A stretch of DNA of 64,000 nucleotides from an uncultured Fidelibacterota bacterium (GTDB taxonomy: Bacteria; Fidelibacterota; Marinisomatia; Marinisomatales; Marinisomataceae): positions 114,813 to 178,812 of the forward strand of contig CABZHT010000001.1 in assembly GCA_902525615.1 (NCBI GenBank). The letters run 5' to 3'. The notes beneath the pieces were generated by a model. The model was not told the DNA's origin and did not search any database. It saw only the letters and a list, made by a program, of their open reading frames with translations. A program made the translations under genes and the position numbers. Of this stretch, positions 35,342-52,330 are shown in pieces; position 1 is the stretch's first letter, and each line of letters begins with the position of its first letter.

Positions 35342-36619
35342 TTAAAACTGTTCTTCTTCTGTTGAGCCATCCATGGCGCTCGTTGAAGGTTCTCCAACAA
35401 TACAATTATTCACTGCATCAAAGTAGCCTGTACCAACCTCTTGCTGATGTGCAGAAAAAGTATATCCCTTATCATGATCTGCAAATTCTTTTTCTTGTAA
35501 TTCTACATAAGCAGTCATGCCAGATTTGACATAATTTTTTGTCAAATCAAACATACCATGCCACATTGAGTGAATTCCCGCAAGAGTTATAAATTGGAAT
35601 TTATAACCCATTGCACCAAGTTCTCTTTGGAACTTAGCTATTGTAGCATCATCAAGATTCTTTCTCCAATTAAATGATGGAGAACAATTATAAGCTAACA
35701 TCAATTCAGGATGATCTTTCTTGATTGATTCTGCAAAAAGTTTTGCTTCTTCAAGATTAGGCTTTCCTGTTTCACACCATAATAAATCAGAATATGGAGC
35801 ATATGAAAGTCCTCTAGAAATTGCTTGATTAATACCCGCTTTGACTCTATAAAATCCTTCAGATGTTCTTTCTCCAGTAACAAACTCAGCATCTCTATCA
35901 TCGATGTCAGAAGTAAGAAGCTCAGCTGCATTTGCATCTGTTCTAGCAACTAGAAGCGTTGGGACATTTGAGACATCTGCAGCTAACCTTGCTGCAACAA
36001 GCTTGTTTATTGCTTCTTGTGTTGGTACAAGGACTTTTCCACCCATATGACCACATTTTTTCACACTTGCTAGTTGATCTTCAAAATGTACTCCAGCAGC
36101 TCCAGCTTTAATCATAGCTTTCATAAGTTCAAAAGCGTTTAACACTCCACCAAAACCAGCTTCTGCATCAGCTACTATAGGTGTAAAAAAGTCAAATTTT
36201 GGGTCGCCATTAGAGCTCATCCATTCAATTTGGTCTGCTCTTTTAAAAGAACTGTTTATTCTTTTTACTAAAGAAGGAACTGAATCAACTGGATATAGAG
36301 ATTGATCAGGATACATTGCTTCAGCACTATTATTATCTGCTGCTACTTGCCATCCAGATACATAAATTGCTTTTGCACCAGCCTTCACTCCCTGCACTGC
36401 CTGTCCCCCAGTTAAAGTACCTAGGCAATGAACATAATCTTCTTTATGAAGCATATTCCAAAGCTTCTCAGCTCCAACTCTTGCTAAAGTGTATTCAGGC
36501 TGAAGAGAACCTCTTAGTTTAACAACCTCCTCTGCTGAATATGGTCTTTTTACATAAGCCCACCTTTCATTCATCTCCCAGTCATTTTTTAATTCTATTA
36601 CTTGTTCATTTAAATTCAT
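35342..36619 (-). CDS. aceA: Isocitrate lyase
   Basis: [57 protein letters not shown]. Confidence 0.96.
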
Positions 36620-38190
36620 TATAACTCCTCGTACGCTTTAGTGGTTAAAAATTCTTCTACATTATCAGACAAAGTGATTTCTTCAAAAATTGATTTCGCT
36701 AAATTGAATTTTCCATTTTCAAACTTTTCGATACCAACTTCATTTTTGACATTCAATAATTCTTCTTCTAAATATTGCTTAAATAATTGTTTATCAACTA
36801 TTTTTCCATTATCAAGCCTATTTTTATGCTTAATCCATTGCCAGATTGAGGTTCTAGAAATCTCTGCAGTTGCAGCATCTTCCATTAAACCATAAATGGC
36901 TACGCAACCCAAACCATTAATCCAAGCTTCAATATATTTAAGTGAAATTCTTATGTTTGATCTAAGACATTCTTCTGAACTAACTCCATTACATCCTTGC
37001 AATAATTGTTCAGCAATAATTTTTTTATCTGAAATAAAATCTAATTGGTTAGTTTGAAAAGTATCAAATTTATCTTTAAAAATTTCGTTTACATAATCAG
37101 CTAACCCAGGGTGGGCAATCCATGTTCCATCGTGCCCATTATTTATTTCAAATAATTTGTCTTCATTAACTTTCTGTAAAATCTTTCTATTCTCATCATG
37201 ATCTTTTGACGGAACAAAAGCTGCCATTCCCCCCATAGCAAAAGCACCTCTTTTGTGACAAGTATTCACCAGCAATGTAGAATAGCTGGTTAAAAATGGT
37301 TGATTCATTGTAATAATGCTTCTGTCCGGTAATAATTTTTCAGGATAAGATTGTAATGTCTTAATAAAACTGAAGATATAATCCCACCTTCCACAATTCA
37401 AACCAATTATATGGTCTTTAAGGTAATATAATATTTCTTCCATTTGAAAAACTGCTGGCAAAGTTTCAATTAGACATGTCACTCTAACTGTTCCCCTATT
37501 TAATCTTAGTTCGTCCTCACAATATGAGATGATATCATTCCACAATTTAGCCTCATGATAGGACTGCAATTTTGGAATGTAAAAATATGGACCTGATCCA
37601 AATGTTTCTAAAGCCTTGTGATTGTGATATAAGTACATTACAAAATCAACTAAAGCCCCATATAATGATACTCCATTGCATGAAATATGCTTTTCTTTAA
37701 GATGCAATCCCCTGACTCTGCACATAAGAATTGCAGGATTTGAACGTAAATTATATTTTTTTAAAGTTACCCTATGCTGGAAAGAAATTGTCCTGTGAGC
37801 AGCATCTCGCATGTTAATTAGCCCATTTTGAATATTTTCCCAAGTAGGAGAAAGAGAATCTTCAAAATCTGCCATGAAAACATTAACATTAGAATTAAGA
37901 GCATTGATAATCATTTTGCGATCAACAGGGCCAGTAATTTCAACTCTTCTATCTTTAAGATTATTTGGAATAGGTCTCACAAACCATTCAGAGCTTCTGA
38001 TATCTTCTGTTTTTTGGTCAAAACTTGGTAAAATTCCTCCGTTAACACTATTTTGATATTCAGCTCTATCATCAATAAGATTATCAATTCTATCGTTGAA
38101 TTTGAGATGAACTTTTTCTAAAAAATTGAGTGCATCTTCAGAAAAAATTTCAGAACCTGAACTAGAAATTTCTTTTGAAAAGTTTAAAAT
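36619..38190 (-). CDS. aceB: Malate synthase A; extended 5' relative to ORF track, apparent ATT start
   Basis: [49 protein letters not shown]. Upstream in-frame sequence encodes conserved N-terminus ([65 protein letters not shown]) with no ATG/GTG/TTG before a stop. Confidence 0.85.
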
Positions 38191-46703: not shown

Positions 46704-47375
46704 ATGGACTTTACAACGTTTACATTTTTTGTAACAAACATGGCTTTACTAGCAGCCGGTCTTTTTCTTTGGTTAGAAAGAGATAATGTAAACCCTAAAT
46801 GGAAAACTGCATTATCAGTTTCAGGTATGGTTTGCTTTATTGCTGCTGTTCATTACTATTATATGAGAGGTAACATGGACATGACTGATGTTGTATCAAT
46901 TAGATACATTGATTGGTTAATTACTGTTCCTCTTCAAATGGTAGAATTCTACATCGTACTTGCAGCTGTAACTGCTGTTAGTGCAGGTGTACTTCACAGA
47001 CTTTTAGGATTTTCTGCTTTAATGTTAACTTTTGGTTATTTAGGGGAAACAGGTCACGTAGCTGCTATTAATTCAACTACAGGTTTTGTTGGCGGAATGC
47101 TCTTCTGGGGACTAATGTTAAGAGAAATCTGGTCAGGTGAAGCTGCTGAAGTTAATGCAGGTTCTAAGAACGCTGCTGCTGCTTACGCATTCGACGGAAT
47201 GAAGAAAATTGTAACATTTGGATGGTTAATTTATCCACTTGGATACGCATTAGGCTACTTCGGTGGTGGTGTAGATCCAGACTTAACTAACCAAGTATAC
47301 AATTTAGCTGATTTTGTAAATAAAATTCTTATCGGTATGATTGTTTATGCTGCTGCTAAGATGGATACAAAATAA
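46704..47375 (+). CDS. Proteorhodopsin (light-driven proton pump type)
   Basis: RYIDWLITVPLQMVEFYIVL (helix C; D70, T74, Q78, E81 here), AVHYYYMRG (H50), GYLGETG, NLADFVNKILIG (retinal Lys207). Confidence 0.97.
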   Translation: MDFTTFTFFVTNMALLAAGLFLWLERDNVNPKWKTALSVSGMVCFIAAVHYYYMRGNMDMTDVVSIRYIDWLITVPLQMVEFYIVLAAVTAVSAGVLHRLLGFSALMLTFGYLGETGHVAAINSTTGFVGGMLFWGLMLREIWSGEAAEVNAGSKNAAAAYAFDGMKKIVTFGWLIYPLGYALGYFGGGVDPDLTNQVYNLADFVNKILIGMIVYAAAKMDTK

Positions 47376-47391
47376 TCAATTCATTTTAATT

Positions 47392-47425
47392 AAAAAAAAG
47401 GTCTTCTTTTGAAGGCCTTTTTTTT
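47392..47425. terminator. Bidirectional intrinsic terminator between convergent proteorhodopsin and APH-type kinase genes
   Basis: AAAAAAAAGGTCTTC-TTTT-GAAGGCCTTTTTTTT, 15-bp stem with one G-T wobble. Confidence 0.85.
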
Positions 47426-48572
47426 ATTCAAACAAATCACTTAATCTATTTTTAACTATTGCTTGCTTAGCCATTATTGACAATGACATTACTGCTAAGT
47501 TCAGTAAACTAAATCTTCTATCTTTTGTATAACCTTTTTTATATCTAAAATAAATTTGTTGTGCTATGACTGCTATTTTAAATAATCCAAAGACATAATA
47601 AAACACTGGATTGCTAATACTTTTTCCAGATTCCTTTTCATACAATTCTAATATGCCTTCTCTTGAAGGATTGCCATCAAGAGTTGTTGCACTTAATTGA
47701 AACAACTTGAGCTCTGGTAAATCATTTTTATCTACCCAGTAGCCAAGAGTAGTTCCCAAATCCATGAAAGGATCACCTATAGTGGCCATCTCCCAATCAA
47801 GAACTGCGGCTATTTTTGAATGATTATCTTTATCTAATACAAGGTTATCATATTTAAAATCATTGTGCACAATAGACCCTTGAACTTCTAAGGGTTGGTT
47901 TTCATGAAGCCAGGATGCTATAAATTCCATATTTGCTATAGAATCAGTTTTTGAATGATTATATCTCTTTATCCAACCTTCAACCTGTCTTTTAACATAG
48001 CCCTTAATATTTCCAAGCTCATTTAAATTAGCTTGATCTATATCAACATTATGTAGCTCTACTAATGTAGAAACTAAAGATTTAGATACATTTTGAATTA
48101 CCTCTTTACCTGGAGAATCCTTTTGCTGGAGATTTGGCCTAATTATATAACCCTCCACTCGTTCCATTAAATAAAAAGGTGCTCCAATTATTTCATTATT
48201 ATCACAATAAAGATATACATCTGGAACTTTTAAAAATTGAGATTTTAGATTTTTTAATACATTGTACTCTCTAAACATATCATGGCCACCCTGTAAGCTC
48301 TTTGCACCAAATGGCGGTCTTCGTAGAACGAACACCTGTGATGATGATTTAAGAAAATAAGTTAAATTGGAATATCCGCTAGGAAACTGTTTAATTGATA
48401 AATCATCAGAATTAATATTATTTTCTGATAAGTAAGTTTTAAGTGTTTCTAGTGCAAATTCTTCTCCATGTCGTATTTCTCTTGGAGTATCCATTGAAAA
48501 ATTTGGGGTCTTATTTTTTTGAATGAATCGTGATAGCAAATAGTAGAATTTAAGCTTTAGAGGAACTCTCAA
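47424..48572 (-). CDS. Phosphotransferase family (APH/ACAD10-like kinase)
   Basis: QGSIVHNDFKYDNLVLD, AAVLDWEMATIGDPFMDLGTTLGYW; TTG start with AGGA overlapping upstream stop. Confidence 0.88.
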   Translation of the reverse strand: MRVPLKLKFYYLLSRFIQKNKTPNFSMDTPREIRHGEEFALETLKTYLSENNINSDDLSIKQFPSGYSNLTYFLKSSSQVFVLRRPPFGAKSLQGGHDMFREYNVLKNLKSQFLKVPDVYLYCDNNEIIGAPFYLMERVEGYIIRPNLQQKDSPGKEVIQNVSKSLVSTLVELHNVDIDQANLNELGNIKGYVKRQVEGWIKRYNHSKTDSIANMEFIASWLHENQPLEVQGSIVHNDFKYDNLVLDKDNHSKIAAVLDWEMATIGDPFMDLGTTLGYWVDKNDLPELKLFQLSATTLDGNPSREGILELYEKESGKSISNPVFYYVFGLFKIAVIAQQIYFRYKKGYTKDRRFSLLNLAVMSLSIMAKQAIVKNRLSDLFE

Positions 48573-48584
48573 AACTTTCGAATC

Positions 48585-49781
48585 CTATTTAAGATATTTT
48601 TTCATTATTTCTTTGGCTACTCTTGACTTATGAACTTCGTCAGCACCGTCATAAATTCTAGCTGACCTTTCATGCCTATACAACGAAGCAAGTGGAGTAT
48701 CATCAGTCATACCAAGAGCACCATGTACCTGAACAGCTCTATCAAGAACATTTTGAAGAACTTGTGCTACATAAAATTTAATCGTTGAAATTTCAACCTT
48801 AGAAGCATAAGCACCTTCATTATCAATTTTTTTAGCAGCATCAAGAACCAATAAACGCGAAGCATTAATTTCTGCTCTTGATTCTGCAATCCAATTTTGA
48901 ATAGTTTGCTTCATCGCTAAAGGTTTTCCAGGAGCAAGCTCCCTTGAAGCTGCTCTTTGACACATCATATCAAAAGCTTTTTCACACTCTCCAATCCATC
49001 TCATACAATGATGAATTCTTCCAGGCCCAAGTCTTTCCTGAGCAATTTTAAAGCCAGCTCCAACAGGACCTAAAACATTCTCTTCAGGAACAATGCAATT
49101 ATCGTAAATGATTTCCGCATGTGCATTCCAACCATCTCCCTCATCTCCCATTACTGAAATATTTCTAATGAAATTGAAACCCTTTGTTTTTGTTGGAACA
49201 ATAATTTGAGATGCTCTCATGTAAGGATTTTCATGATCTGGATCTGTAATTACCATTACAATAGCAAAATCAGCACCATCTGCAGAAGATGTAAACCATT
49301 TATGTCCGTTTATAACATAGTTAGAACCATCTTTTACTGCAGTTGTACCCATTATTACTGGATTAGAACCTGCAAATTCAGGTTCGGTCATTGAAAAACA
49401 ACTTCTTACTTTTCCCTCAACTAAAGGTTTTAAAAATGTTTCTTTTTGATAATCAGTGCCATGCTCTATAAGAATTTCCATATTCCCAGCATCAGGCGCT
49501 TGACAATTGAATACATAAAGACCATAAAATGTTTTACCAAGAATTTCATAGATTTGACCCAACTGATGTAGGCTTAATCCCAATCCTCCATGCTCTTTTG
49601 AAATTTGAGGAGCAAATAATCCCATCTCCCTTACCTTATTTCGTTTTTCTTCTAGGAATGGTAAATGATCTGCAAATTTATGATTGATATTAAAATCGTC
49701 TTCATGAACAACCATTTCTTTATCAATGAAGTTTTGAATTTTTGATTTTATTTCTTCAAATTTTTCGTTTGGTAAAGCCAT
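48585..49781 (-). CDS. Acyl-CoA dehydrogenase (ACAD10/11-like)
   Basis: CFSMTEPEFAGSNPVIMGTTAV, YVINGHKWFTSSADGADFAIVM, QVHGALGMTDDTPLA...RIYDGADEVHKSRVAKEIMKKY. Confidence 0.93.
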   Translation of the reverse strand: MALPNEKFEEIKSKIQNFIDKEMVVHEDDFNINHKFADHLPFLEEKRNKVREMGLFAPQISKEHGGLGLSLHQLGQIYEILGKTFYGLYVFNCQAPDAGNMEILIEHGTDYQKETFLKPLVEGKVRSCFSMTEPEFAGSNPVIMGTTAVKDGSNYVINGHKWFTSSADGADFAIVMVITDPDHENPYMRASQIIVPTKTKGFNFIRNISVMGDEGDGWNAHAEIIYDNCIVPEENVLGPVGAGFKIAQERLGPGRIHHCMRWIGECEKAFDMMCQRAASRELAPGKPLAMKQTIQNWIAESRAEINASRLLVLDAAKKIDNEGAYASKVEISTIKFYVAQVLQNVLDRAVQVHGALGMTDDTPLASLYRHERSARIYDGADEVHKSRVAKEIMKKYLK

Positions 49782-49788
49782 AATTTCC

Positions 49789-50487
49789 CTAAATGTATGT
49801 TTCCAAATATCTTGGTATTAAACTACGATTAAAAGCATCCAATGTAAAAGTATCATTTTCTTTCTTAAACAATGTAATAGAGGCATTTTTAATCTTAAAA
49901 TTTAATTTTATGATTTCATCGACTGTCAATGGATGGCATTCAGCATAAACACTAGTGATAGCACCTCCAGATGACACAACCATTGTATTCCTATTTTCAT
50001 TCATTAATGAGGATACTTTACTTTTTGCCATTCGAACTCTTTCTCGGAATTCATCGTAACTTTCAAAACCTTTTTCAGATAAATCAAGTTCATTATGAAT
50101 CCATTTTTTTGCAATAATGTTAAAATACTCTAAAAATTTTCGTTTACGCTTCCAAAAAGGAACCGCATTAAAAATTTCCTTAATATTTTTATCTGTGCTT
50201 AACATTTGAGGAATGAAATGCTGAGCAATTTCCATCAACTGATTTTCAGCAAACTCATCAAGAATTAATGGGTTACTTAAATCTCCCCCATATCCTTTAT
50301 TTATGCCATCAAAAGTTTGTTGATGTCTTTTCAATGGACCAATAATTGTTTGATCAAAAAATATATTATTTTTCAATAATTTTTGTCCAAGAGCAATTGA
50401 TTGCTTAATCCCTTTTTTACTCAAATTATCATAGTTTTTTTCACCAAAGGACGCTTGTCCATGTCTAATTAAATATAAATTAGTAAT
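49789..50487 (-). CDS. Histidine phosphatase family protein; apparent ATT start
   Basis: Extending the track ORF upstream in frame gives (I/M)TNLYLIRHGQASFGEKNYDNLSKKGIKQS: the catalytic RHG lies upstream of the listed start; AAGGAGG 5' of ATT at 50487. Confidence 0.82.
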   Translation of the reverse strand: MTNLYLIRHGQASFGEKNYDNLSKKGIKQSIALGQKLLKNNIFFDQTIIGPLKRHQQTFDGINKGYGGDLSNPLILDEFAENQLMEIAQHFIPQMLSTDKNIKEIFNAVPFWKRKRKFLEYFNIIAKKWIHNELDLSEKGFESYDEFRERVRMAKSKVSSLMNENRNTMVVSSGGAITSVYAECHPLTVDEIIKLNFKIKNASITLFKKENDTFTLDAFNRSLIPRYLETYI

Positions 50488-50503
50488 ATTCCCCTCCTTG
50501 ATA

Positions 50504-50959
50504 CTACTCGTAGATTAAAAATACCTGCTCTGCTACACAGGCTGACTTTTCATTATCTTTAAGCTCTACCGTAACTTCAACGGTCAATTTTGCACCATTT
50601 TTAATCTCTTTAAATTCTTTTAAAACAACCCTTCCTCTCACAAAGCTTTTTACAGGAACAGGCGCAGTAAATCGGACACGATTTAGTCCATAGTTTACAC
50701 CCATTTTGGCTGATTTGATAGCATAGGTTTCCTCTAAAAACTTTGGAAATAAAGATAGAACTAAGAAACCATGAGCGATTGTAGATTTGAAAGGAGATAA
50801 TAATTTAGCTCTTACTGGAGCAGTATGAATCCACTGTTCATCTCCTGTTACTTTTCCAAATTTAGATATTTGAGATTGTGAAATTTGATGCCATTTACTA
50901 ACTCCTAGCTCCGATCCAACAAAACTTTTTACTTCTTCTAGGTTTTTTAAAGTTTTCAT
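50504..50959 (-). CDS. MaoC-family dehydratase
   Basis: GSELGVSKWHQISQSQISKFGKVTGDEQWIHTAP...TIAHGFLVLSLFP. Confidence 0.9.
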   Translation of the reverse strand: MKTLKNLEEVKSFVGSELGVSKWHQISQSQISKFGKVTGDEQWIHTAPVRAKLLSPFKSTIAHGFLVLSLFPKFLEETYAIKSAKMGVNYGLNRVRFTAPVPVKSFVRGRVVLKEFKEIKNGAKLTVEVTVELKDNEKSACVAEQVFLIYE

Positions 50960-50980: not shown

Positions 50981-52330
50981 CTAGTTTCTAACAATATTAA
51001 ACTTTTTAAAATAAAAACGCATCCAAGCAAAAGAAATAATTGCAGCAATTAAAATTGCTAATATTTGAGAAAACCAAACCCACTCAATTGGCTTTCCTAT
51101 GAAATAAAAGTAATAAGATAAAGGAGCTGTTAAAATAATAACTCGAGTAATTGTTGTTATAAGAAGTGGCATTCCTTGACCTAAAGCTTGACATACTCTT
51201 GAACAAATAACACTTATTCCAACAGCTGGATAAGCTAATATAATAATTTTTAAATAGGTTACTCCAATATCGATAACTAAGGGGTTTGAACTAAAAATAG
51301 GTAAAATATTGCTAGATAAAACAAAAAAGAATATTACACTAATTGTTGTAATCAACACTGCTCTATTTATTCCATAATAAACCACTGATAAAAGTTTGTC
51401 AAATTCTTTTGCGCCATAAAACATTCCTACTATGGTTGTTAAACTAATGGCTATTCCTAAAATTGGCATGAATAATAACATATCAAGTCTTGAAACTATT
51501 TGATAGGCAGCTACAGCTTCTGTTGAATAATTTACAAGAATCTTATTCATCACTACTTGTCCGAAGGAAATAATAAGCATGGAAATTGAAGATGGAATCC
51601 CAATTTGAAAGATTTTTGACATTATATGATTATTAAGGCTTAAATACCTTACATGAAATGATATGAAAGTTGATTTTTTTACAAAAATGATAAATAAGTA
51701 CGCCAAAACCATTACAATCTGACTTATAATTGTTGCAAAAGCTGCTCCTCTTACACCATACTCAAAAGTAAAAATTAGAATTGGATCAAGAATTAGGTTT
51801 AAAACAGTACCAATTAACCCGATAATCATTGGAATTTTTGTTTCGCCTTCTCCAGCTAAAATAGCTCTAAAAAACATTGAAAAGATAACTAATCCAAGAC
51901 CAAATGTTAGAATTCTTAAATAAGAATAAGCTATTGTCAAAATTTCTCCCTCAGCACCTAGAATAGACAGTAATCCTTCTCCATAAATCACTCCAAGAAT
52001 AGTTAAGACAATAGTACTTAAAAAACCGATTAATAATGTCTGCGAAGCAGTTTTTTCAGCATTATTTTTATCTTTTTGACCAATATATTGAGCTATTGTA
52101 GCAGTCGCTCCAGTTCCGATTCCCACTCCAAGACCTATTATAATAAAAAATAAAGGGCTAACAAATGCTACTGCTGTGACCTCATCTGCACCAAGCCATC
52201 CAATAAACATAATATCTATCACATTAAATAATGTTTGCACCATCATTCCTGCGATGATTGGCAAAGCCATATCCCACATAGATTTATAAGGATTTGCTAA
52301 AAAATCCTTTAGGCGAGATTCTTTTTCCAT
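50981..52330 (-). CDS. MATE-family efflux transporter
   Basis: MALPIIAGMMVQTLFNVIDIMFIGWLGADEVTAVAFVSPL and 12-TM profile. Confidence 0.92.
   Translation of the reverse strand: MEKESRLKDFLANPYKSMWDMALPIIAGMMVQTLFNVIDIMFIGWLGADEVTAVAFVSPLFFIIIGLGVGIGTGATATIAQYIGQKDKNNAEKTASQTLLIGFLSTIVLTILGVIYGEGLLSILGAEGEILTIAYSYLRILTFGLGLVIFSMFFRAILAGEGETKIPMIIGLIGTVLNLILDPILIFTFEYGVRGAAFATIISQIVMVLAYLFIIFVKKSTFISFHVRYLSLNNHIMSKIFQIGIPSSISMLIISFGQVVMNKILVNYSTEAVAAYQIVSRLDMLLFMPILGIAISLTTIVGMFYGAKEFDKLLSVVYYGINRAVLITTISVIFFFVLSSNILPIFSSNPLVIDIGVTYLKIIILAYPAVGISVICSRVCQALGQGMPLLITTITRVIILTAPLSYYFYFIGKPIEWVWFSQILAILIAAIISFAWMRFYFKKFNIVRN

Follow-up and report, generated by a model that had tools for sequence, protein, structure and literature searches.

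A probable AUU start codon behind a strong Shine-Dalgarno sequence in a histidine-phosphatase-like gene of Fidelibacterota, and other non-NUG starts in the lineage

The locus and its start site

The window, a 64,000-nucleotide stretch from a 919-kb draft genome in five contigs, carries on its minus strand a histidine-phosphatase-like gene flanked by genes for a MaoC-like hydratase, an acyl-CoA dehydrogenase, a kinase and a transporter. The features discussed here are as follows, in the direction of reading for the gene cluster.

50981-52330, minus strand: MATE transporter, upstream neighbour
50504-50959, minus strand: MaoC-like hydratase gene, upstream; its stop TAG (50506-50504) lies in another frame
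50515-50517, minus strand: in-frame stop TAA, the upstream bound of the open phosphatase-like frame
50493-50499, minus strand: Shine-Dalgarno (SD) sequence AAGGAGG, facing the 16S tail CCUCCUU; duplex energy -11.7 kcal/mol
50485-50487, minus strand: putative AUU start codon (ATT); of 21 congeneric orthologues, 13 have ATT here and 3 have ATG
49789-50487, minus strand: histidine-phosphatase-like coding sequence, 232 amino acids when read from the AUU; stop codon at 49791-49789
48585-49781, minus strand: acyl-CoA dehydrogenase, downstream, like the ACAD11 dehydrogenase domain
47424-48572, minus strand: APH-family kinase, like the ACAD11 kinase domain
36619-38190, minus strand: malate synthase A (aceB), with ATT at 38190-38188 and the SD-like AAGGGGG at 38203-38197

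The phosphatase-like frame is open from TCT at 50514 to its stop, and the codons 3' of the TAA read TCT ACG AGT AGT ATC AAG GAG GGG AAT ATT ACT AAT TTA TAT TTA ATT AGA CAT GGA. A preliminary description of this DNA had stated that no ATG, GTG or TTG lies between the in-frame stop and the catalytic RHG motif, and that the listed start leaves the motif out. Reading the codons bears out both points: the first canonical codon is that listed start, TTG at 50424, which lies 3' of RHG. The description also placed an AUU five nucleotides behind AAGGAGG, and the coordinates agree, with the SD at 50499-50493, the spacer GGAAT at 50492-50488 and the ATT at 50487-50485. This SD is a 7-nt perfect match to the genome's own 16S 3' end, GGATCACCTCCTTTC. 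RNA folding of the start region was unremarkable (z 0.80). The gene almost certainly begins at the AUU at 50487; the sequence evidence for this is the open frame together with its SD and ATT, the conservation of all three and the exclusion of other in-frame starts.

The encoded protein matches Pfam His_Phos_1 (PF00300) at 65.2 bits, against a cut-off of 21.7, over profile positions 1-192 of 194. A single-sequence search for solved relatives found none; a profile search matched phosphoglycerate mutases and CobC-type phosphatases. The RHG motif (R8 H9 G10) is invariant in 21 orthologues. The preliminary label of histidine phosphatase stands in part: the branch 1 domain and the RHG support homology to branch 1 of the superfamily, but the description overlooked that the position of the second catalytic histidine, aligned to GHGG of 9mmh, is a serine in all 21 orthologues (S173 G174 G175 here). 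Because of this replacement, phosphatase activity is uncertain, and the activity may be altered relative to the superfamily. Across the 21 orthologues the motif at this position reads SSGG or TSGG.

With TTG 50424 as the earliest canonical codon, a truncated protein might begin there, or the 5' end of the gene might have decayed. Yet across 21 uninterrupted orthologues RHG and the other residues before the TTG show little or no variation, and the Pfam match spans the full domain from residue 4. Decay, which the preliminary description had named as a way to be wrong, is further opposed by the conserved operon; we rejected the pseudogene on the strength of the uninterrupted orthologues and regard decay or truncation as very improbable.

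The gene order MATE, MaoC, phosphatase, acyl-CoA dehydrogenase, APH kinase is kept among the 21 orthologues wherever the fetched DNA extends far enough to show it; within the same limits, the MATE neighbour is present in all species. For the downstream kinase and dehydrogenase, the ACAD11 entries 2wbi, 8v3u and 8v3v were among the best matches, and the genes from 47424 to 50959 (minus strand) make up a conserved operon resembling a split ACAD11 module. A predicted seven-helix rhodopsin-like protein, read from sequence and with no NCBIfam match, is encoded at 46704-47375 on the plus strand. Its gene is convergent to the operon in species whose fetched DNA extends there.

Orthologues and changes of start type

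The genus was compared across 24 genomes, the source genome and 23 congeneric ones, and the phosphatase-like gene is present in 21 of them. The named close matches are single-cell genomes and metagenome-assembled genomes of Candidatus Marinimicrobia/Neomarinimicrobiota. ATT stands behind an SD in 13 of the 21 orthologues, comprising ten in the window's clade and three (L031-L033) at about 45% identity. Upstream of the conserved protein, 11 of these 13 have no canonical in-frame start. The exceptions, L032 and L033, have an additional in-frame ATG farther upstream, inside MaoC, so their start is less certain and the clean AUU count is 11. Three orthologues (L026-L028) have ATG at the position of the AUU, and the remaining five (L021, L024, L025, L029 and L030) have lost the SD and instead have, a few codons upstream at the MaoC stop, an ATG with no SD. 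SD duplex energies follow this division: they are -6.9 to -11.7 kcal/mol in the AUU orthologues, and the homologous site of the five AUG-overlap orthologues gives +0.1 to -3.1; these counts come from related species and hence are not independent.

The comparison of start positions that the preliminary description had proposed yields 12 further species with ATT and three with ATG at the site. The description had named ATG in orthologues as an outcome that would refute its reading; the close orthologues do not show it. Since the source genome is a five-contig draft, an error in sequencing or assembly that hid a true ATG might be suspected, but SD and ATT recur in those 12 species, whose genomes were assembled independently from single cells and metagenomes. 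We rejected this explanation on the orthologues and consider it the least probable of all those weighed.

A protein made as a fusion to MaoC, by frameshift or stop read-through, was also considered, as the MaoC gene ends 16 nt upstream, with an overlap of a few codons between the two frames. Read-through of MaoC, however, meets a TAA in MaoC's own frame, and a fusion would give the SD and ATT no reason for retention. Two orthologues, L022 and L023, refute a fusion for their own genes: downstream of the MaoC stop they carry a TAG in frame directly before GAG GGG AAT ATT, through which no fusion is readable. As this TAG abuts the SD, initiation in the two species is confined to the next few codons, among which ATT, a near-AUG codon at SD distance, is the sole plausible start. 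Overall, we hold a MaoC fusion to be highly unlikely.

How one arrangement can give way to the other is visible in the sister species L019, with AUU and SD, and L021, with AUG and no SD. The upstream ATG of L021 also exists in L019, though in another frame; in L021, which has lost the SD, a change in length puts it in frame with the gene. On the tree of the 21 species the start type has changed at least three to four times, so the AUU is not indispensable.

Two frequency comparisons set limits on this evidence. The invariance of the third base of ATT is not significant on its own, as 6 of 13 invariant isoleucine columns in the same species are also all ATT. When the motif alone was searched for, ATH following a strong SD (7/179) was neither rarer than expected nor clearly enriched over other codons (38/1,321). 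The case for the AUU start rests on the comparison between species.

Other non-NUG starts and the strength of their SD sequences

A start census compared about 459 kb of the source genome with three relatives, covering 430 genes with homologues. It was built on non-overlapping open reading frames and on synonymous and non-synonymous counts, as raw homology was swamped by shadow frames and conserved leaders. It gives a lower bound, both because it covered only those stretches of the genome and in that AUH starts near a canonical codon would escape it. Four genes had convincing non-NUG starts: infC, aceB, lpxA and the phosphatase-like gene. A further candidate, prfB, was set aside, as its N-terminus leads us to regard it as a case of the known programmed frameshift.

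The classical AUU gene infC served as the positive control of the census. It has ATT behind AAAGGAG (L034-L049, with L038 from the source genome), and in 11 of the 16 species no canonical codon lies upstream in frame; in the other five such a codon, ATG or TTG, does occur farther up in frame, and one of these, L042, has ATC at the start site, its upstream codon being ATG. The second AUU-started gene in the window is aceB, which has no canonical start before its conserved N-terminus. All 12 congeneric orthologues have ATT there, and the codon before it varies among ATC, AAC and GTT. Outside the genus canonical codons are available, so the AUU of aceB seems to be genus-specific.

The start of lpxA can be followed farthest. 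Within the genus (L149, L150-L167), AUU, AUC, AUG or, once, AUA occupies one aligned site. In the rest of the order (L191-L212, L221, L222), as read from the listed contexts, 17 of 24 sequences have AUU and 5 of 24 AUC; of the other two, L211 has AUG and L195 is ambiguous. In other orders of the phylum (L223-L243) the same IHPT motif is preceded, 3-4 codons earlier, by ATG in 17 of 18 scorable sequences, while the eighteenth has TTG; three further sequences were unscored. That lpxA in this order uses AUU or AUC at a place held by AUG in other orders is the best general comparative evidence for genuine AUH starts in the lineage. Our literature search found no report of AUU starts for lpxA or from Marinimicrobia.

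SD duplex energies were computed for 379 genes of the source genome whose start codon is shared with relatives. The medians were -2.2 kcal/mol for ATG, -2.9 for TTG and -4.3 for GTG. At -11.7 kcal/mol, the SD of the phosphatase-like gene is stronger than that of 99% of these 379 canonical starts. The other three genes reach -12.1 (infC), -10.2 (aceB) and -8.4 kcal/mol (lpxA), and the four SDs are individually stronger than 94-99% of canonical starts. The initiation site proposed in the preliminary description is supported by the 12 further species with ATT, the uninterrupted orthologues, the in-frame TAG of L022 and L023, and the same kind of start in infC, aceB and lpxA.

Decoding, dose and known counterparts

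We consider it very probable that the AUU at 50487 is translated, read by the ordinary initiator fMet-tRNA with the strong SD compensating. The tRNA would decode AUU despite the mismatch at the third codon position, and the 7-nt SD at good spacing would offset the weak codon. No altered initiator tRNA was found in 20 genomes, and nothing in the usual GGG/CCC anticodon stem points to a modified decoding apparatus; an altered 16S tail was likewise considered and not found, the 3' end in the source genome being ordinary. Genes with AUU or AUA starts elsewhere suggest that initiation here would be inefficient, IF3 discriminating against the codon. In vitro, raising IF3 reduces initiation on AUU by the CAU anticodon (PMC10158994). 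In Staphylococcus aureus, AUU and AUA starts come with extended SDs and, in poor medium, give about 10% of what AUG gives (PMC13009471), and genes with weak starts show a tendency towards compensating SDs (PMC5622118). By analogy, the AUU would keep expression low and IF3-sensitive, with less protein made than from the neighbouring genes of the operon. The arrangement is conserved and probably limits expression.

The operon suggests a possible reason for a low dose. ACAD11 handles 4-hydroxyacyl-CoA by way of a phosphorylated intermediate, and the two downstream genes match its kinase and dehydrogenase domains; the nearest known systems are ACAD10/ACAD11 and the Pseudomonas putida lva operon with its LvaA kinase and LvaC dehydrogenase (PMC12440821). 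The present system differs in having two separate genes, with MaoC and the phosphatase-like protein alongside, and is known from its sequence. The dehydrogenase, kinase and MaoC might form a split ACAD11-type module working through phosphorylated 4-hydroxyacyl-CoA, beside which a phosphatase-like protein would need to be scarce. A low-dose protein acting on the phosphorylated intermediate is then a possible reason for weak initiation.

The main rival concerns the role of the AUU and not its use as a start. It holds that the codon is a near-neutral accident with no regulatory role, in a lineage that tolerates weak codons behind strong SDs. Its chances are considerable, if somewhat below even. 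The repeated changes of start type among the 21 species, the switching of lpxA among four codons at one site and the AT-richness of the genome all speak for it. Against it stand the constancy of the aceB AUU within the genus and of AUU or AUC in lpxA across the order, as well as the retention of strong SDs where AUU is used. Switches from AUG to AUU are otherwise very rare: a survey across 36 groups of genomes counted 1 among 61,358 ancestral AUG starts (PMC5622118).

If the AUU does limit expression, a more ambitious joint reading, which we regard as speculative and rather unlikely, is a start-codon regulon in which AUU-started IF3, through its discrimination against AUH codons, would set the output of the glyoxylate shunt, of lipid A synthesis and of a side pathway involving acyl-CoA. 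As part of the same improbable proposal, its members would be infC, lpxA (throughout the order) and, within the genus, aceB and the phosphatase-like gene.

Ordinary chromosomal genes with an AUU start are familiar from Escherichia coli infC and pcnB. The infC of the present lineage likewise has ATT behind an SD; the phosphatase-like gene differs from both E. coli examples in being another gene, known here from comparison of genomes. Of the two, pcnB is described as translationally limited by its AUU (Binns and Masters 2002, as cited in PMC13009471). In S. aureus, cvfC1 (AUU), ccpN (AUA), citZ (AUA) and infC (AUA) resemble the present cases in combining a non-NUG start with a strong, extended SD, in numbering few per genome and in including metabolic genes, and cvfC1 and ccpN are conserved across species (PMC13009471). 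They belong to another phylum and are other genes, and they were established by initiation profiling and reporters, whereas the present ones come from comparative sequence analysis. A single AUU start is thus of a known kind, and the interesting part is the multi-gene, deeply conserved set.

With a set of AUH-started genes, one of them conserved throughout an order at a place where other orders keep AUG, and natural switches between AUU and AUG tied to the gain or loss of an SD, selection of weak starts becomes testable. This opens the question of whether weak start codons are a selected means of setting protein dose, tied to IF3. Gene callers that assume ATG, GTG or TTG truncate or lose such genes; in the phosphatase-like gene, the part removed includes the catalytic motif.
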